Shown here piece after piece: positions 3,028 through 40,688 of a stretch of DNA of 64,000 nt. The stretch lies in NCBI GenBank assembly GCA_022072455.1, contig JAJVHY010000013.1, positions 186,001 through 250,000 on the forward strand. Direction: 5' to 3'. The position numbers were made by a program, and so were the translations under genes. The notes beneath the pieces were generated by a model. It was not told the DNA's origin. It searched no databases and saw only the letters and a program-made list of their open reading frames with translations. Position 1 is the first letter of the stretch. The number at the start of each line of letters is the position of its first letter. Origin of the DNA: Verrucomicrobiia bacterium (GTDB lineage: Bacteria; Verrucomicrobiota; Verrucomicrobiia; Palsa-1439).

Positions 3028-4409
3028 AGTACCGTCGCTTCCAAATCGTATTCACTGGCCCCGGTGATCCGGACCGTGGCGAACTCGCCGACCGGGGCCG
3101 TGCCGGTCACCTTCACCGTCCCGTCAATCTCCGGCGCATCGGCGTGCGACCGGGCCACCCCGGGCTTCTCCACCAACACCCGCAGCGTCTGGCCGACGCA
3201 CCGGCGTTGCACCGCGCGCGAGACTTGTTGCTGGGTCAACATCGCCCGTTTGTGGCGCGCCTTCTTCACCTTCTCCGGCAACTGCTGGTCCATGTTCCCC
3301 GCCGGCGTGTGATCTTCCTGTGAATAGGTGAAAATACCGAGCCGCTCGAATTCCGTCCTCTCGATGAATTCGCACAACTCATCGAACTGCTCATCGGTCT
3401 CACCGGGGAAGCCGACGATGAACGTCGTCCGCAACGCGATCCCCGGCACACCGCGTCGAATCCGCGCGATCAGCTCGCGGATATATTGCCCGCTCGTCTC
3501 GCGTTTCATCCGTTTCAACATCGCGTCGTTGATGTGCTGCAACGGCATGTCCACATACCGGCAGACCTTGTCATTGCCGGCAATGGTGGCGATCAGTTCA
3601 TCGCTCCAATGCGCCGGGTGGGTGTACAGGAGGCGAATCCAGAAATCACCGGGAATCTGCTGGGCTTGCCGGAGCAACTCGCAGAGTTGCTCCTGACCAC
3701 CGTTGAGGTCTTTCCCGTAGAACGTCGTGTCCTGCGAGATCAAATTGAGTTCCCGGCAACCCGCCGCGACCAGTTGCCGCATCTCCTGCAAAACATCGGC
3801 CACCGACCGGCTCCGGTGGAGGCCGCGGATCCGCGGAATGCTGCAGAACGTGCAGGGATGATTGCAGCCCTCGGCAATTTTCACGTAGGCGGTATGTTGC
3901 GGCGTGAGCCGGACGCGCGGCGCGGAGAAGTCCGGCACATATTTCGCGGGGCCGGACCAGTAAAGATTAGTGGAACGGGCGTCCCGCCCGTTATTAGTTT
4001 CGTGATCCAACGGGCGGGACGCCCGTTCCACTACTTCCTTGGCCAGTATCTCCCGCACGATCCCCGCCATCTTCGGCACCTCGTTCAACCCGACGATCGC
4101 GTCGACCTCCGGCAATTCCGCGCGCAGTTCTTTCGGGTACCGCTGCGTGAGACAACCGGCCATGATCAACGCCTTGCACTTGCCGGTCGTGCGGAGTTCG
4201 TTCGCCTTGAGAATCGCGTTGATGGATTCCTGTTTCGACGCCTCGATGAACCCGCAGGTGTTGACGATGACGACGTCGGCCAGCTGCGCGTCGGCGGTCA
4301 ACTCCATGCCTTCCTTGGCGAGGGCGCCGAGCATGACTTCGCTGTCCACGAGGTTCTTGGCGCAACCGAGGCTGACCAGCCCGATTTTGATGGGAGACGG
4401 GGCCGGCAT
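3024..4409 (-). CDS. rimO: ribosomal protein uS12 methylthiotransferase
   Basis: RimO adds a methylthio group to the conserved aspartate of ribosomal protein uS12 using two 4Fe-4S clusters and S-adenosylmethionine. The MTTase N-terminal domain shows its three cysteines in GCAKNLVDSE, NTCGF and GCLTQRYP. The radical-SAM CxxxCxxC is in EGCNHPCTFCSIP near residues 178-188, and a TRAM RNA-binding domain closes the protein. RimO rather than MiaB is supported by the VSLGCAKNLVDSE opening and IRLLYTHP. ATG at 4409 was chosen because it overlaps the stop of the rodZ-like gene (TAATG). Residues about 126-147 are encoded by a palindromic element and fall in the linker between the MTTase and radical-SAM domains, so activity is probably kept. 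Confidence 0.93.
   Translation of the reverse strand: MPAPSPIKIGLVSLGCAKNLVDSEVMLGALAKEGMELTADAQLADVVIVNTCGFIEASKQESINAILKANELRTTGKCKALIMAGCLTQRYPKELRAELPEVDAIVGLNEVPKMAGIVREILAKEVVERASRPLDHETNNGRDARSTNLYWSGPAKYVPDFSAPRVRLTPQHTAYVKIAEGCNHPCTFCSIPRIRGLHRSRSVADVLQEMRQLVAAGCRELNLISQDTTFYGKDLNGGQEQLCELLRQAQQIPGDFWIRLLYTHPAHWSDELIATIAGNDKVCRYVDMPLQHINDAMLKRMKRETSGQYIRELIARIRRGVPGIALRTTFIVGFPGETDEQFDELCEFIERTEFERLGIFTYSQEDHTPAGNMDQQLPEKVKKARHKRAMLTQQQVSRAVQRRCVGQTLRVLVEKPGVARSHADAPEIDGTVKVTGTAPVGEFATVRITGASEYDLEATVL
3968..4033. repeat. family-A palindromic element inside rimO
   Basis: Two perfect 25-bp inverted arms (3968-3992 and 4009-4033) surround a 16-bp spacer. The left arm begins TAGTGGAACGGGCGTCCCGC. 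The 66-bp length equals 22 codons and the rimO frame passes through, giving a peptide that ends in NGRDARST. A close relative lies in manA at 16088-16152. Confidence 0.92.
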
Positions 4410-15860: not shown

Positions 15861-16784
15861 ATGCTCTATCCCTTACGATTCCAGCCCATTCTCGTCGAAC
15901 GCATCTGGGGCGGCACCACCCTCGCCCGCTACGGCAAGCCCCTTCCGCCCGGCAAACCCATCGGCGAAACCTGGGAAATCAGCGACCGCGACAAGGAACA
16001 AAGCGTTGTGATCAACGGCCCACTGAAAGGCCAAACCCTCCGGCAAGTGATGGAGAAGTGGGGTGACGAATTGCTGGGCCGCAAAGGTAGTGGAACGGGC
16101 GTCTCGCCCGTTGATTTGACCAGCGCAAACGGGCGAGACGCCTGTTCCACTAGATTTCCCCTCCTCATCAAAATGCTCGACGCCCGCGAGCGTCTGTCGC
16201 TTCAGGTCCATCCCCCGGCCGCCATCGCCCCCCAACTCGGCGGCGAACCCAAAACCGAAATGTGGTACATCCTCGAAGCCGCACCCGACGCCCATCTGAT
16301 TGCCGGCCTCAAACGCGGCACCACCCGCGCCCAATTTGAGAAAAACGCTGCCAGTTGCGTCCATCGGTTTCCCGTGCACGCCGGTGACTCGATTTTCATC
16401 CCGTCGGGCCGCGTCCATGCGATTGATGCCGGGCTGGTGATCGTGGAGATCCAACAAAACTCCGACACGACTTACCGGGTGGATGACTGGGGCCGCGGCC
16501 GGCAAGTTCATCTCGCGGAATCCATGGCCTCGATTGATTTCAACGACTTCGAGCCAGGAGTGAATCCCCTGCCGATCCAATGCGAACATTTCCGCGTCGA
16601 GAAGCTCAACGCGCCGGCGACAGGAACGTGCGACGGAACGTCGTTCCACATCCTCGCGGGTCTCACCGGCACGGTGACAGTCAATGACGAGAAGCTGAAC
16701 CCCGGTGATTTCGTGTTATTGCCGGCAGCGTTGGGGAACTACACGCTCACCGGCAACGGCACAGTCTTGCGGGCGACGCTGTAG
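15861..16784 (+). CDS. manA: mannose-6-phosphate isomerase, class I
   Basis: A 307-aa protein that interconverts fructose-6-P and mannose-6-P, feeding GDP-mannose synthesis. Family hallmarks are YPLRFQPILVERIWGG at the N-terminus, zinc ligands in LQVHP (residue ~115) and KTEMWYI, and SGRVHAIDAG (~182), then VEIQQNSDTTYRVDDWGR. The start MLYPLRF fits the family; an in-frame ATG at 15840 near the -10 box is an alternative. Residues about 76-97 (GTGVSPVDLTSANGRDACST) come from a palindromic element placed in the loop before FPLLIKMLDA. The gene is about as long as the short bacterial ManA class plus this insertion. Its TAG stop lies inside another palindrome at 16779-16837. Confidence 0.92.
   Translation: MLYPLRFQPILVERIWGGTTLARYGKPLPPGKPIGETWEISDRDKEQSVVINGPLKGQTLRQVMEKWGDELLGRKGSGTGVSPVDLTSANGRDACSTRFPLLIKMLDARERLSLQVHPPAAIAPQLGGEPKTEMWYILEAAPDAHLIAGLKRGTTRAQFEKNAASCVHRFPVHAGDSIFIPSGRVHAIDAGLVIVEIQQNSDTTYRVDDWGRGRQVHLAESMASIDFNDFEPGVNPLPIQCEHFRVEKLNAPATGTCDGTSFHILAGLTGTVTVNDEKLNPGDFVLLPAALGNYTLTGNGTVLRATL
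16088..16152. repeat. family-A palindromic element inside manA
   Basis: Inverted 25-bp arms (16088-16112 and 16128-16152) with one mismatch surround a 15-bp spacer. The left arm begins TAGTGGAACGGGCGTCTCGC. It is translated as GTGVSPV...NGRDACST in frame. Its relative in rimO is one base longer in the spacer. Confidence 0.92.
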
Positions 16785-16837
16785 GGTGCGCTATTGCGCA
16801 CCGCCCGGCCATCGGTGCGCAATAGCGCACCCTACAG
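16779..16837. repeat. perfect palindrome between manA and the carboxypeptidase gene
   Basis: Perfect 24-bp arms (16779-16802 and 16814-16837) with an 11-bp spacer; each arm starts CTGTAGGGTGCGCTATTGCG. The TAG of manA (16782-16784) and the TAG of the convergent carboxypeptidase gene (16832-16834, minus) are the same bases of the two arms. It could also act as a bidirectional terminator hairpin, although no T-tract follows. Confidence 0.9.
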
Positions 16838-21809: not shown

Positions 21810-23672
21810 TTAGGTTTGCCGCGACCGCAACAACAGCGACCGCTCTTTCGATCGTGATTCGCCGACGGCCGTGACATACACCGCGGGGTCGTCAATGACC
21901 GGGCACTCATGCTCGCAGATACCGCAGCCGATGCAAAGCTCGGGACGCATGTAGGGCCGGTTCAATGTGACCAGCGTCCCGTCCCAACGTTTGATCTGGA
22001 CGTCGTACGTGCCGATGGCCTTGGGCGAGACCGGGCAGACTTCCTCGCAGACAACACAGGGGGTTTCCATCGCCCACGGCAGGCAGCGGCCATGATTGAA
22101 GAACGCCGTGCCCAGTCGAATTGGCCCATCGGCGGCGAACTGGCCGAGGCCGAGTTTCTTTTCGAGGGAGATTTTCTGAATCGCGCCGGTGGGACAGACT
22201 TCGCTGCAGAGCGTGCAGTTGAGTTGGCAGAAACCGATGGACATATCCATGACCGGCGTCCACCACCCTTCCACGCCGCCGTGCGCGAGTTTCGACGGCT
22301 GGAGAACATTGGTCGGGCAGACGTTGATGCACTGGTCACATTTGATGCAGCGTTCGAGAAACTCGCTTTCCTCGACCGAGCCGGGGGGACGGATCGCCTT
22401 CCGGTTAAATCCCCGGTGATTCACCGCTGCCGACAGGCGTAGGAACGGATACGCCAACACGCCGGCAAAGCCCGACAAAATCCACCGCCGCCGGTTCAAG
22501 TCCGGCCAGGCGACTTCTTTCTCCGGTATCTTGCTGATGATATGCCGGCCATGCGCTGCTTTTTGGTGTTTTACCGGCAGGAAGCGGAACGTCAGCGCAT
22601 CCTCCGGGCAGTCGTCAATGCAGTTGAAGCAGACAAAACACTCACTCTTCCGCAACGCGGCCTGCGGATCGGAGGCACCTTCGCAGTGGGCAAGACAGAG
22701 ATTGCAGTCCGTACACCGCGTCAAGTCGCGATCAATCCGCCAGAGCGAGAACCGCGACAACCAACCGAGAAATGCACCCAGCGGACAGAGCACCCGGCAA
22801 AAGAACCGCGGGATCACCAGATTCATGCCGACCAAGACGATGATCATCGCGCCGATGAACCAGGCGCCGTAGAAAATCCGTTGGTCCGGCGCGCCCGGGG
22901 CGTGGGCCAACGGACGAATCCAACCGGCGTTGATGCCGCGCGATTCCAGCGCTCGTGATGTTTGATCGACGGCGAGATCCGCCGCCGGCGCAACCGTGGC
23001 GGTCATGGTGCGATACATCAGGCAAATCGGATCGAGAAACCCGATCTGCAACGAGCCGAAGACCGCCAGCACCATGAAGATGATCAGAATGATGTATTTG
23101 AGTTGGAAGATGGAGCGATACCGGTTGATCGCGAGTTTGTCGATGTTGCGGCGCGTGTTGAACAGCCAGCCGAAGAATTGATGGAGCGTGCCGTACGGAC
23201 ACATCCAGTTGCAGAAAAACCGGCCGAGAATCAGCGTCGGGATGATCAACACCAGACTCCAGATCAGATTCCGGTAAACTGTGTGCGTCGAAATCGCCGT
23301 GGCGACGGCAACCAGCGGGTCAATTTCGAGAAAGAGCGAGACCGGGTAGCCTTTCATCCGACTGAACCACGTCACAAAACAGAAAAACATGAACAGCGCG
23401 AAAAAGAAGAACTGTGAAATCACTCGAATCCGCGTGATGCGGAACACCCGCACCCACCACGGCGCCTGACTCGCCCGGTAATGCGCTTTGGGCGGCGCTG
23501 GGGCGGCAACGTTGCCGGTCTCGGACTTCAGTCGGTTCAGCAGATCGAAGGCGGCGTTCGAATCACTTGTTGGAGGGACGCGCTTCGTCGCGTCCGTTCG
23601 GGAAGCGGCCACGACGGAGCGTGGCCCTCCAGAACTACCGCAGCCGCCGCTCTTGCCGCAGCCGCAACTCAT
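21810..23672 (-). CDS. membrane polyferredoxin, NapH/NosR-like 4Fe-4S protein
   Basis: A protein of 620 aa. About six membrane helices are interrupted by the NapH/NosR signatures [15 protein letters not shown] and [13 protein letters not shown]. After the helices comes a string of 4Fe-4S motifs: [53 protein letters not shown] and [12 protein letters not shown]. This is an electron-transfer hub moving electrons between a quinone-side membrane module and peripheral clusters. The start [14 protein letters not shown] is set by the ATGA overlap with the DUF362 stop. Residues about 15-34 come from a family-B palindromic element. The neighbours suggest it powers exported redox proteins; the electron source is unknown. 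Confidence 0.88.
23571..23631. repeat. family-B palindromic element inside the polyferredoxin gene
   Basis: The outer arms TGGAGGG and CCCTCCA enclose two smaller hairpins (GGACGCG/CGCGTCC and GGCCACG/CGTGGCC). The whole is an imperfect inverted repeat about 61 bp long. It lies near the 5' end of the gene and is translated in frame ([19 protein letters not shown]). Confidence 0.85.
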
Positions 23673-35854: not shown

Positions 35855-36911
35855 CACGCATCCCAAGCGCATCCTCGTCCGGGCCACCAACTGGATTGGC
35901 GACACCGTCATGACCTTGCCGGCCGTCCAACGCCTCCGCGAACTCGAACCCGACGCCCACCTTACCGTTGCCAGCCCCGAAAAACTTGCCGACCTCTGGC
36001 GGCACAACCCCCACGTCAACGATGTCCTCACCGGCCCCCTGCCTCGCCGGCAATTCGATCTCGCCATCATCTTCCCCAACTCCTTCCGGTCCGCTTGGGA
36101 ATGCTACACCGCCGGCATCCCGCGCCGCGTCGGCTTTACCGGCCACTGGCGGCGCGCCCTCCTCACCGACGCCCTCCCCGACCCCGAACAATCCCGGTAT
36201 GAAAAACTCACCGTGGCCGGCAAACAATTCGAGCGAAAGATCTTCCCGGTCATCCGCCACCAATCGCACCGGTATCTCGACCTCATCGGCCACCTCGGCG
36301 GCAATCGAACCCACTGTCCACCGAAACTCTGGATCGCTGCCGGTGAAATCCCAGCATTAACCAAATTTCTCCACGAAGGCTCCCGCCCCTTCTTCGGCAT
36401 CAATGCCGGCGCCGAATACGGCCCCGCCAAACGCTGGCCGGCCGAGAACTTCATATCCGTCGCCAAAAACATTTCCGCTGAAGTCGCCTGCCGCTGGCTC
36501 ATCTTCGGCGGCCCCGGCGACACCGCCATTGCCGGCCAGATCGAAACCGACCTCCGCACCGCACTCGACGACCGTTCCGTCGTCAACGTCGCCGGCAAGA
36601 CCAACCTCCTCGAACTCTGCCAACTCCTAAAGTTCTGCCGGCTCCTTATCACCAACGATACTGGCCCCATGCACTTAGCCGACGCCCTCGGCACCCCGCT
36701 CGTCGCGATCTTCGGCAGCACTTCTGCCCCGCTCACCGGCCCGACCGGCAAACACAGCCGGGTGGTCAACGTCCCCGTCGAGTGCAATCCCTGCTTTCTT
36801 CGGGAATGCCCTGTAGATTTCCGCTGCATGCAAGCGATCAGCGTCGACCAAGTCACCGCCGCCGCCCGGCAACTCTGGACCGAAACGGAAAAGACGCACG
36901 GTCACATATGA
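35823..36911 (+). CDS. waaF: lipopolysaccharide heptosyltransferase, WaaF type (GT9)
   Basis: A 362-aa GT-B enzyme of family GT9. RATNWIGDTVMTLPAVQRLR near residue 19 is the typical N-terminus of heptosyltransferase II, and TNDTGPMHLADALGTPLVAI plus FGSTSAPLTGPTG complete the nucleotide-sugar site. It transfers ADP-L-glycero-D-manno-heptose or a related sugar to the LPS inner core. A Cys-rich C-terminus (ECNPCFLRECPVDFRC) is also family-typical. The start ATG lies inside the lpxK 3' end and the stop overlaps the murJ ATG (ATGA). Specificity for heptose is by family, since GT9 members can use other donors. Confidence 0.87.
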   Translation: MKPSEQSAIVNTHPKRILVRATNWIGDTVMTLPAVQRLRELEPDAHLTVASPEKLADLWRHNPHVNDVLTGPLPRRQFDLAIIFPNSFRSAWECYTAGIPRRVGFTGHWRRALLTDALPDPEQSRYEKLTVAGKQFERKIFPVIRHQSHRYLDLIGHLGGNRTHCPPKLWIAAGEIPALTKFLHEGSRPFFGINAGAEYGPAKRWPAENFISVAKNISAEVACRWLIFGGPGDTAIAGQIETDLRTALDDRSVVNVAGKTNLLELCQLLKFCRLLITNDTGPMHLADALGTPLVAIFGSTSAPLTGPTGKHSRVVNVPVECNPCFLRECPVDFRCMQAISVDQVTAAARQLWTETEKTHGHI

Positions 36912-38491
36912 GCGTACCTCAGTCCCCTTCGGTTGTGCGCTCCGCCCGCACGGTCAGCCTGGCGGTGCTTGGCAGCCGGGTGCTCGGGCTGGTGCGCGAA
37001 CAGGTGCTCGCTTCGCTCTTTGGCGCGAGCAAGGAGTTCGACGCGTTTCTCACCGCGTTCCGCATCCCGAACCTGCTCCGCGATCTCTTTGCCGAAGGCG
37101 CGCTCTCGGCGGCGTTCGTCACCACGTTCACCCAGAAAGTCGAAACCGAAGGCGACAAATCCGCGTGGCGACTCGCCAACCTCGTCCTCAACGCCCTACT
37201 CATCATCCTCAGCGTGATCACGATTGCCGGCATCGTCGCGGCGCCGTGGTTGGTCAAACTCATCGCGCCCGGCTTCGCCAACGTCCCCGGCAAGGTTGAA
37301 CTCACCATTCAACTCACGCGGATCATGTTCCCGTTTTTGCTGATGGTCGCCATCGCTGCACTCGCGATGGGGATGCTCAACGCCAAACGCGTCTTCGGCG
37401 TACCGGCGAGCGCTTCGATGATGTTCAATATCGGCTCGATTGTCGGCGGGCTCGGGCTGGCGTGGTTTTTCACGAGCCAGTTCGAACCGCGTGACCGCGC
37501 CATGGTCGGGATGGCTATCGGCACCCTCATCGGGGGCGCGGCGCAATGGCTTATCCAGATCCCGGCCTTGCGACGCGTGGGATACCGGTACGCGCCGTTG
37601 CTAGACTGGAACGATCCCGGCTTCCGGCAAGTGGTCAAACTCGTCGCGCCCTCGGTCCTCGGCGTCGGTGCGGTGCAGATCAATATCTTTGTGGACAACT
37701 GGTTCGCGTCGCAGTGGAACGGGGGCGTGACGTGGCTCAACTGCGCGTTCCGGTTGATGCAATTCCCCATCGGCGTCTTTGGCGTCGCGATTGCCACCGC
37801 GACGTTGCCCACCGCCAGCGCACACGTCGCCCGTGGGGAAATTGATCATTTCCGCAAAACGCTGGCCCGCTCGATCCGGTTGGCCTTCTTCCTCTGCATC
37901 CCGGCCGCGTTCGGTTTGGCCTTGCTGGCGGAGCCAATCATCGCTGTCATCTACCAGCACGGCCGGTTTCTGGCCGGCGACACGCAGCAGACGGCCCGGT
38001 GTCTTCAAGCATTCGCCGTCGGACTGGCCGGCTATGCCGCGATCAAGGTCATTGCGCCAACGTTTTACGCCTTCGGTGATTCGCGCACGCCGATGCTGGT
38101 CACGGTCAGCTCCATTTTCGTCCACGTCGCCGGCAACTATCTGTTTGCCATCGTCCTCGACATGAAGACTGCCGGGCTGGCTCTCTCGACTTCATGCGCG
38201 GCGCTCCTCAATTTTCTGATTCTCCTGGCATTGATGCGCCGCCGGATCGAACGCATCGAAGCCGGTCAGTTGGTGAAATCCTGCGCCAAAATCCTCCTCG
38301 CCTCGCTGCTGATGAGTGCCGCCGCCTACGGCGCGCATACGTTGCTAAGCGCAAACCGGTATCTGGATGTAGCCGGCTCCGTGGTTGTGGCGGTGATCGT
38401 GTTCGGCGCGTCCTGCAAACTACTGCGCGTCGAGGAACTCGGTGAATTGTTTGGCGTGCTGAAGTTTGGCGCGAAGGGGCCTGGTTCGTAG
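36908..38491 (+). CDS. murJ: lipid II flippase MurJ
   Basis: A 527-aa member of the MVF/MOP superfamily that flips undecaprenyl-pyrophosphate-linked peptidoglycan precursor across the inner membrane. The hallmark N-terminus is seen (LAVLGSRVLGLVREQVLASL, FGASKEFDAFLTAFRIPNLL, RDLFAEGALSAAFV), with about 14 membrane helices and INIFVDNWFAS in the middle. The ATG at 36908 overlaps the waaF stop by 4 nt. An in-frame ATG at 36782 lies within waaF and encodes low-complexity sequence. The operon order lpxK-waaF-murJ links LPS and wall assembly. Confidence 0.94.
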   Translation: MSVPQSPSVVRSARTVSLAVLGSRVLGLVREQVLASLFGASKEFDAFLTAFRIPNLLRDLFAEGALSAAFVTTFTQKVETEGDKSAWRLANLVLNALLIILSVITIAGIVAAPWLVKLIAPGFANVPGKVELTIQLTRIMFPFLLMVAIAALAMGMLNAKRVFGVPASASMMFNIGSIVGGLGLAWFFTSQFEPRDRAMVGMAIGTLIGGAAQWLIQIPALRRVGYRYAPLLDWNDPGFRQVVKLVAPSVLGVGAVQINIFVDNWFASQWNGGVTWLNCAFRLMQFPIGVFGVAIATATLPTASAHVARGEIDHFRKTLARSIRLAFFLCIPAAFGLALLAEPIIAVIYQHGRFLAGDTQQTARCLQAFAVGLAGYAAIKVIAPTFYAFGDSRTPMLVTVSSIFVHVAGNYLFAIVLDMKTAGLALSTSCAALLNFLILLALMRRRIERIEAGQLVKSCAKILLASLLMSAAAYGAHTLLSANRYLDVAGSVVVAVIVFGASCKLLRVEELGELFGVLKFGAKGPGS

Positions 38492-38576
38492 TTAGGCACG
38501 GAGTCCGACGGAGTGCCGTCGAATGTGGTGAGTTGCCGGAATTATGGAGGGTGGTAAAATGGTTCACGTCGCCCGA

Positions 38577-38607
38577 CGCCACTCCGCTTTGCTTCGTGGC
38601 TTACTAC
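38577..38607. repeat. 31-bp repeat upstream of the RAYT gene
   Basis: CGCCACTCCGCTTTGCTTCG then TGGCTTACTAC. It matches the copy at 39208-39238 at 27 of 31 positions in direct orientation, and its ends GCCAC/GTGGC can pair to form a hairpin. Confidence 0.8.
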
Positions 38608-38619
38608 CAACTGTCGCCG

Positions 38620-39198
38620 ATGTACGAATACCGAAAATTATCCGTTGCGGATCGCAAGGCAGTCATCGCCGCGCGACGCGACCGACTGTTACCACTCCAT
38701 GCGCCGCCACATTATCCCGGTAGACGCCTGACCTACATCCTCACCGCCGCATGTTACGAACACAGAGAACTCATCCGGCCGGCCCCACGACGCGATGAGT
38801 TAGCAAGCGAGCTCTTGGCAGCCCCAGCCGAAATCCATGCCTGGGTGATCTTGCCGAATCACTATCACCTGTTGGCCACGGTTGATCTCGCTGCGTTTCG
38901 CGAATGGATTCGCGTCTGTCATAGCCGGCTGGCGACGAATTGGAATCGCGAGGACAGCGCTCGCGGACGCAGGGTTTGGTACCGCTTTCAAGACCGACAG
39001 ATTCGCGGGGATGGACACTTCTATGCCACGATGAATTACATCCATGCGAATCCGGTAAAACACGGTTTCGCGAAACGTGCGGACGATTGGCCGTGGTGCA
39101 GTTTTCACAGGTATCTGGTGGATTATGGCCGGGAATTGTTGGTGAAATTGTGGAGGGATTATCCTGTTGACCGGTACGGAGCGGCTTGGGACGATTGA
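38620..39198 (+). CDS. REP-associated tyrosine transposase (RAYT, Y1/IS200-like)
   Basis: A 192-aa protein of the TnpA_REP family. PHYPGRRLTYILTAACYEH is the family N-terminus, AWVILPNHYHLLA carries the HxH metal motif, and YIHANPVKHGFAKRADDWPW matches the conserved end of the domain. The tyrosine nucleophile is expected around FYATMNYIHANP. RAYTs are single-copy domesticated relatives of IS200/IS605 transposases that process palindromic REP/REPIN sequences. ATG at 38620 is preferred to an earlier ATG at 38533 because the added residues come from the flanking repeat. The gene lies between two direct 31-bp repeats. It may act on them or on other palindromes in this genome; that is inference. 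Confidence 0.88.
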   Translation: MYEYRKLSVADRKAVIAARRDRLLPLHAPPHYPGRRLTYILTAACYEHRELIRPAPRRDELASELLAAPAEIHAWVILPNHYHLLATVDLAAFREWIRVCHSRLATNWNREDSARGRRVWYRFQDRQIRGDGHFYATMNYIHANPVKHGFAKRADDWPWCSFHRYLVDYGRELLVKLWRDYPVDRYGAAWDD

Positions 39199-39207
39199 TC
39201 CGCAAAA

Positions 39208-39238
39208 CGCCACTCCGCTGCGCTGCGTGGCTCACTAC
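39208..39238. repeat. 31-bp repeat downstream of the RAYT gene
   Basis: CGCCACTCCGCTGCGCTGCG then TGGCTCACTAC. This is the direct-orientation partner of 38577-38607, starting 10 bp after the RAYT stop codon. Confidence 0.8.
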
Positions 39239-39260: not shown

Positions 39261-40688
39261 TTGAGCACCAACCTCAAATCGAAAGTCCGCGAGCTGCCTA
39301 ACAAGCCGGGGGTGTACCTGATGCGCGATACGTTGGGGCGAGTGATCTATGTCGGCAAAGCCCGGTCGCTCCGTAAACGGGTGTCACAATACTTCCACCC
39401 ATCCCGGCAAATGCGGTGGGATCCAAAAGTCCGGGCATTGATTGATTCCATTGCGGACTTCGAGACGTTTGTGGTCAACAGCGAGCCGGAAGCGCTGTTG
39501 CTCGAAGGCCGGCTCATCAAGGAGTTCAAGCCGCGCTACAATGCGTTGCTCAAGGACGACAAACGCTTTCTCCTCGTGAAGGTGGATCTCCGGGAGGAAT
39601 ACCCGCGGTTCAAGTTCGCGCGCTTGAAGAAGGATGACGGGGCGTTGTACTTCGGGCCGTTCGCGCATGCCGGGGCGGTGCGCGTGGCGATGCAGTGGGT
39701 TCGCAAGAAGTACGGCGTACTCGTGCAAGGGACTGGCGCGCCGAAGGCGAAGGATTTGAAGTACTCGACGTATCTCGTGCCGGTGCCACTCAAGGACATG
39801 ACCCGCGAAGATTATCTTCAGCACGTCGAGAGGGCGTGTGGTTTTCTCGACGGGAAAAATGCAGAGGCGCTGGTCGAGCTCGAACAGCTGATGCGCCAAG
39901 CTGCAGAACTCCGGCAATTCGAGAAAGCCGGTGAGTATCGGGATGTGATCACCAGCTTGAAGGAGATCGCCCGGTCGGCACGCGAAAGGAAATTCGCCCG
40001 TGACCTGCGCCCGAAAATCAATACTGGCGAGGAAATGGCGGAATTGCAGCGCGTGCTCAATTTGCCGGTGTTGCCGGTGCACGTCGAGGGGTTCGATATC
40101 TCGAACATCTCCGGCACGCTGGCAGTGGCTTCAACGGTTTGTTTCCAAGCCGGCAAGCCGCACAAGGAGCATTACCGTCATTATCAGATCCAGACTGTCG
40201 AGGGGAGCGATGACTTTGCGTCGATGGCGGAAGTGGTCGCGCGCCGGTATGGGCATACGGACGTGCGGCCGGATTTGGTGATGGTGGACGGAGGTGCCGG
40301 GCAGTTGAGCGCGGCGTTACGGGCGCTGGCGGAGATTGGCGTCAAGTTACCGGTGATTGGGTTGGCGAAACAGATGGAGGAAATTTACACCGGCGACACG
40401 GTGTTGCGACTGGAACGGAATTCGCCGGCCTTGCATTTGATTCAGCGGCTTCGGGATGAGGCGCACCGGTTTGCCAACGCATATCACCAAAAGTTGCGGA
40501 AACGGCGGATTCAGGAGTCGGTACTGGACGAAATCACCGGGTTGGGCGAGAAGAGGAAGATGACGTTGTTGAAACAGTTCGGGTCCATTCAACGGTTGCG
40601 GGCGGCACCGGTCGAAACAATTGCAGCGGTGCCGGGGATTGGCGCGAAAATGGCCGCGACACTGAAAGAATTCCTGGAGCGCCGTTGA
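39261..40688 (+). CDS. uvrC: excinuclease ABC subunit C, compact form
   Basis: A 475-aa nuclease of nucleotide excision repair. It has a GIY-YIG domain (GVYLMRDTLGRVIYVGKARS, with the Glu in SEPEALLLEG), a UVR motif near residues 199-235, and an RNase H-like 5'-incision domain (VEGFDISNISG at ~273 and VMVDGGAGQL). Tandem HhH motifs close the protein (AAVPGIGAKMAATLKEF). The start is TTG at 39261. The protein is shorter than the ~600 aa usual for UvrC: only about 40 residues separate the UVR motif from the RNase H-like domain, where roughly 130 are normal. Catalytic residues are visible in both nuclease halves. Confidence 0.9.
   Translation: MSTNLKSKVRELPNKPGVYLMRDTLGRVIYVGKARSLRKRVSQYFHPSRQMRWDPKVRALIDSIADFETFVVNSEPEALLLEGRLIKEFKPRYNALLKDDKRFLLVKVDLREEYPRFKFARLKKDDGALYFGPFAHAGAVRVAMQWVRKKYGVLVQGTGAPKAKDLKYSTYLVPVPLKDMTREDYLQHVERACGFLDGKNAEALVELEQLMRQAAELRQFEKAGEYRDVITSLKEIARSARERKFARDLRPKINTGEEMAELQRVLNLPVLPVHVEGFDISNISGTLAVASTVCFQAGKPHKEHYRHYQIQTVEGSDDFASMAEVVARRYGHTDVRPDLVMVDGGAGQLSAALRALAEIGVKLPVIGLAKQMEEIYTGDTVLRLERNSPALHLIQRLRDEAHRFANAYHQKLRKRRIQESVLDEITGLGEKRKMTLLKQFGSIQRLRAAPVETIAAVPGIGAKMAATLKEFLERR

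Follow-up and report, generated by a model that had tools for sequence, protein, structure and literature searches.

A RAYT gene flanked by GTAG-tagged REP hairpins in a Verrucomicrobiia genome, probably a REPtron

REP-associated transposases (RAYTs) and the REPs that surround their genes have been described as REPtrons, and in genomes with several families of GTAG repeats the RAYTs were found to be repeat-specific (Di Nocera, 2013; PMC3733652). The same study reports a GTGG-tagged variant in Opitutus terrae (GTAG-20) and documents REPs located within genes, with O. terrae, a member of the Verrucomicrobia, being richest in intragenic GTAG repeats (PMC3733652). For other RAYTs, in vitro tests have addressed how GTAG acts in recognition and in the choice of the cleavage site (PMC8266576). 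In our search of the literature on RAYTs or palindromic elements in Verrucomicrobia, the study of Di Nocera was the only relevant paper found.

Here we have analysed a window of 64,000 nucleotides from a Verrucomicrobiia bacterium (assembly GCA_022072455.1, contig JAJVHY010000013.1, positions 186,001 to 250,000), in which an initial annotation had recognised a RAYT transposase between two near-identical repeats and had suggested palindromes located within genes as substrates of this protein or of a relative. The gene (38620..39198, + strand) encodes a RAYT, also termed TnpA-REP, of 192 amino acids with an HUH motif formed by H81-Y82-H83 and Tyr140 as candidate catalytic residue. Its reading frame is intact, without stop or frameshift, and scores 89.9 bits against the NCBIfam model NF047646 (REP_Tyr_transpos, cut-off 80) in the window search and 91.3 bits in a second search, which bears out the annotated identity. 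The ATG at 38620 is the best start, with the resulting length being kept in the ortholog of a related genome (G002); a TTG at 38533 was rejected since translation from there would run through the repeat. In an alignment of six homologs H81, H83 and Y140 are invariant, and a profile of these found a single PDB chain, that of TnpA-REP (4er8, E 8e-13), with the aligned part spanning the HUH motif and the tyrosine. The same structure, which shows a RAYT bound to a REP hairpin, is the top Foldseek match (E 2.9e-7, TM 0.53/0.60) of a moderately confident AlphaFold2 model (pLDDT 69.6), followed by the TnpA proteins of IS608 and ISDra2 as secondary matches. Searches of the reading frame against Pfam returned no family at E 1, so that Y1_Tnp is not matched either, and the locus is absent from the PF01797 matches of the genome. 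The gene is present in one copy in the source genome. Relative to the G002 ortholog, identity at third codon positions is only 43% (dS was not computable, which we read as saturation), against a dN of 0.26, and the protein is thus judged to be under purifying selection.

The two direct repeats reported to bracket the gene, at 38577..38607 and 39208..39238, agree in 27 of 31 bases, and a search of the window for the 31-bp pattern with up to 3 mismatches retrieves exactly these two sites and nothing in 100 shuffled sequences. Both are located on the minus strand, where the left one (copy 2) reads GTAGTAAGCCACGAAGCAAAGCGGAGTGGCG, and the right one (copy 3) is single and lies 9 bp past the stop codon of the RAYT. 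A diverged third copy that had been overlooked is found at 38488..38518 on the plus strand, with GTAG at its 5' end and a compensated change in the stem (GGCAC/GTGCC). This copy 1 is inverted relative to copy 2 and both together form a REPIN of 120 bp (38488..38607) directly upstream of the RAYT, which contains GTAG at both outer ends. On the strand that begins with this tag, the three copies of the family, which we call REP-D, follow the common pattern GTAGTNNGNCACGNAGNNNNNCGGAGTGNCG, consisting of GTAG, three bases and an irregular hairpin. Across 71 copies from the source genome (G000) and G002, each base of the tag is conserved to 98.6-100%, which supports GTAG as the recognition tetranucleotide that the initial annotation had proposed to look for. 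The proposed ability of the repeats to form hairpins is supported by the stem pair 9-29, which switches from C-G in 51 copies to G-C in 12 copies from the two genomes. Pairs with outward-facing tags (+-) account for 15 of 53 REP-D clusters. The source genome contains six REP-D copies, three of them at the locus, two in a REPIN on contig C10 and one on contig C1.

The relationship between gene and repeats extends across genomes. In a set of 57, comprising the source genome and 56 relatives of the same class, a close RAYT ortholog is found only in G002, a metagenome-assembled genome from the Verrucomicrobia in the same family as the source, where it shares 69% identity with the window protein compared to 49% for the next best match. 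The REP-D pattern with up to 3 mismatches is matched 6 times in the source genome and 57 times in G002, and each of the remaining 55 genomes has at most two matches, all at 3 mismatches and of the same order as in a control with the reversed pattern. RAYT and REP-D are thus found together in both carriers of the gene and in none of the 55 others, including G001, which belongs to the genus of the window, and G008, which belongs to the genus of G002. With two repeat carriers drawn randomly from the 57 genomes, a coincidence with both RAYT carriers would be expected once in 1,596 cases, a value that ignores relatedness. In G002 the gene resides at another locus, with pairs of REP-D on both sides. 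A similar arrangement is seen on a broader scale among 80 related RAYT loci identified in a scan of named genomes, which are distributed over Verrucomicrobia, Kiritimatiellae, Lentisphaerae, Planctomycetota, Acidobacteria, Cyanobacteria, Chloroflexi and other groups. A repeat common to both flanks is found at 61 of the 72 loci with sufficient flanking sequence, compared to 1 of 132 shifted placements in a control, and GTAG/CTAC is contained in 48 of these 61. The stems vary among the loci and GTAG recurs, often inside GTTCGTAGT.

In the window, the RAYT is placed between murJ, encoding the lipid II flippase (36782..38491, + strand; Pfam MurJ, E 9.8e-118), and uvrC (39261..40688, + strand; TIGR00194, 394 bits). 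Both genes adjoin each other without a RAYT in six relatives (G001, G004, G007, G011, G013 and G014). In G001 the murJ match stops four residues before the end of the query and about 180 bp ahead of the start of uvrC, and in G009 the gap between the two genes is longer and contains no match to the window RAYT. Because of these RAYT-free junctions, the unit of RAYT and REPs was most likely inserted between murJ and uvrC in the lineage of the window, and its loss from all other lineages would be a less likely explanation.

With these features, the locus is very probably a REPtron, in which an HUH single-strand transposase, present in one copy and maintained by selection, is combined with GTAG-tagged hairpins that it recognises. 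By analogy with TnpA-REP from E. coli, the window RAYT would bind the folded single-stranded REP via GTAG and the irregular hairpin and cut beside it with Tyr140, and REP or REPIN units would be copied or joined into new sites that are almost always extragenic. The most likely role of the protein would be to copy the flanking GTAG hairpins around the genome. Since only six copies are found in the source genome, some of them degenerate, this activity may have ceased there. It is conceivable that the locus is instead a simple IS200/IS605-type insertion sequence with the 31-bp repeats as its ends, since such elements belong to the same HUH superfamily, the fold search gave IS608 and ISDra2 TnpA as secondary matches and the gene is missing from the site in relatives. 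We consider this highly improbable, as the gene is single-copy whereas REPs occur dispersed over the genome, singly or in REPINs, as the REPs at the locus are both direct and inverted and do not constitute distinct left and right ends, and as the cut-off of the RAYT-specific model is exceeded while Pfam Y1_Tnp remains unmatched. The location of the repeats directly past murJ and directly ahead of uvrC could alternatively reflect incidental hairpins, such as terminators, with no special relation to the RAYT. We regard this as extremely unlikely in light of the joint occurrence of RAYT and REP-D by genome, the flanked ortholog at an unrelated locus in G002, the conserved GTAG tag and the same layout at most related RAYT loci.

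The reading of the locus as a REPtron leaves the question of whether the window RAYT also mobilises the other palindromes of the window. As the initial annotation gave no coordinates for its families A and B, we equated family A with the element found at both 3967-4034 and 16087-16153, and family B with the one at 16781-16835. Pattern searches of the source genome list 25 copies of family A (up to 3 mismatches) and 28 of family B (21 of them exact) beside the six of REP-D, and its description as repeat-laden is thus appropriate with respect to the presence of several REP families but not to the abundance of REP-D. Family A consists of GTGG plus AACGGGCGTCYCGCCCGTT and family B of GTAGGGTGCGCTATTGCGCACC. 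The tag of family A is GTGG in the source genome and GTAG in G004 and G010, where it occupies the tag slot beside AACGGGCG; a reading as GTAG also in the source genome was ruled out, since the base ahead of TAGTGG varies. Mobilisation of all three families by the window RAYT would find support in their common organization, as each carries a GTAG or GTGG tag and forms REPIN-like inverted pairs, yet we find it very unlikely. The stems of families A and B are unrelated to the stem of REP-D, and A and D differ in their genic placement. Family B flanks a different RAYT on contig C9 exactly and on both sides, which marks the C9 protein rather than the window RAYT as its evident owner, in line with the suggestion of a relative as mobiliser. 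Twelve of the 57 genomes contain family A, and 10 of these lack a close ortholog of the window RAYT; among the ten is G001, where family A is matched twice and a RAYT not once. G004 contains ten matches, and its sole RAYT relative is longer and scores below the cut-off. Family A was not found beside any of 56 scanned RAYT-like loci, some of which overlap. Its proposed role as substrate of the window RAYT is thus not supported. Its cognate RAYT may possibly have escaped detection, as the genome is 95.6% complete and the scan covered only fetched RAYT loci. A further inverted repeat, GGAGGGCCACGCTCCGTCG, is found in the window at 698-758 and 23605-23630 and resembles GGAG-GGACGCGCTCCGTCGCGTCC beside a RAYT of G002 (L192). 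The source genome also contains four longer relatives of Y1 transposases below the RAYT cut-off (open frames of 317-379 aa at C1:482180, C4:28155, C14:80461 and C30:705), at which a simple hairpin scan detected no repeat pairs with GTAG, GTGG or GGAG tags.

The families also differ in their location relative to genes, which was assigned from an uninterrupted shared frame together with a codon model whose training set was the window; the per-flank model is weak when used by itself and the resulting counts are estimates. For REP-D, none of 52 scored clusters from the source genome and G002 were called in-gene (two reside in open frames without coding signal), at odds with the notion of a family driven by this RAYT that tolerates coding insertions. 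In the source genome, none of the 15 clusters of family B and 9 of the 15 of family A are placed inside genes, latter in frame, with two more family A clusters being open and not clearly coding. In other genomes, for which the model was not retrained, the respective values for family A are 2 of 10 in G002, 0 of 13 in G056, 0 of 8 in G004 and 2 of 9 in G010. Within the window, GTGG-tagged REPINs of family A are found in frame in rimO (3967-4034, - strand) and manA (16087-16153, + strand), where such elements encode peptides such as SGTGVSPV..NGRDACST. Independent checks of both cases agree with these insertions, since a segment of about 20 residues is missing from RimO orthologs of the same family where the repeat sits, and an alignment with ManA of known structure contains a gap at the equivalent segment. 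The family B REPIN at 16781-16835 ends manA, with the stop codon TAG being supplied by its GTAG tag. We rejected coding capacity of the repeat as cause of the genic placement, since families B and D, judged informally by eye, likewise allow read-through in several frames. A further GTGG family, C, goes with a RAYT on contig C12 and was scored in genes in 3 of 5 cases in the source genome, a small and biased sample. It is doubtful whether these observations reflect a general division in the source genome, with the GTAG families B and D (paired with the C9 and the window RAYT) residing between genes and the GTGG families A and C in frame inside them. Should this be true, RAYTs of a lineage directed to coding sequence, or tolerated there, would constitute a real variant, distinct from the window RAYT. 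At locus L016 (source genome, C12:96067-99273, - strand), the frame of bioF continues uninterrupted into the GTGG RAYT of contig C12, over at least 601 aa, with bioA coming next, and at L166 on contig C43 of G005, from another genus, the equivalent frame spans 627 aa and again precedes bioA, with bioF and bioA named from inspection of the translation. At both loci, REP sequence is found at the junction between bioF and RAYT and again in frame within the RAYT, as a pair in the case of the GTGG RAYT. The arrangement suggests a possible conserved BioF-RAYT fusion.

The palindromes inside genes are now separated from the window RAYT and call for an explanation of their own. The RAYT and REP-D, jointly present in two genomes and jointly absent in 55, provide a clean pair that should be useful for testing RAYT specificity. 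Among described systems, the in-frame dimers of family A inside genes resemble the intragenic GTAG REPs of O. terrae and the RPEs of Rickettsia conorii (PMC3733652), a likeness that concerns family A and has no link to the window RAYT. Latter finds its best match in both fold and sequence in TnpA-REP from E. coli (PDB 4er8; PMC8266576), with which it has in common the HUH motif and tyrosine and a GTAG REP with an irregular stem, whereas its N-terminus is longer by a block (YRKL..PLHAPPH) and its REP contains three nucleotides between GTAG and a stem of other sequence. As described in the literature on REPtrons (PMC3733652; Bertels and Rainey, 2011, PMC3116915), these likewise comprise a single tyrosine-transposase gene between its own GTAG REPs, paired inverted REPs that are mostly extragenic and repeat-specific RAYTs where REP families coexist. 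The window locus differs in the sequence of its REP stem, which is found in only 2 of the 57 genomes searched, and not in mechanism, and it thus adds a member to the known REPtrons and does not define a new kind.
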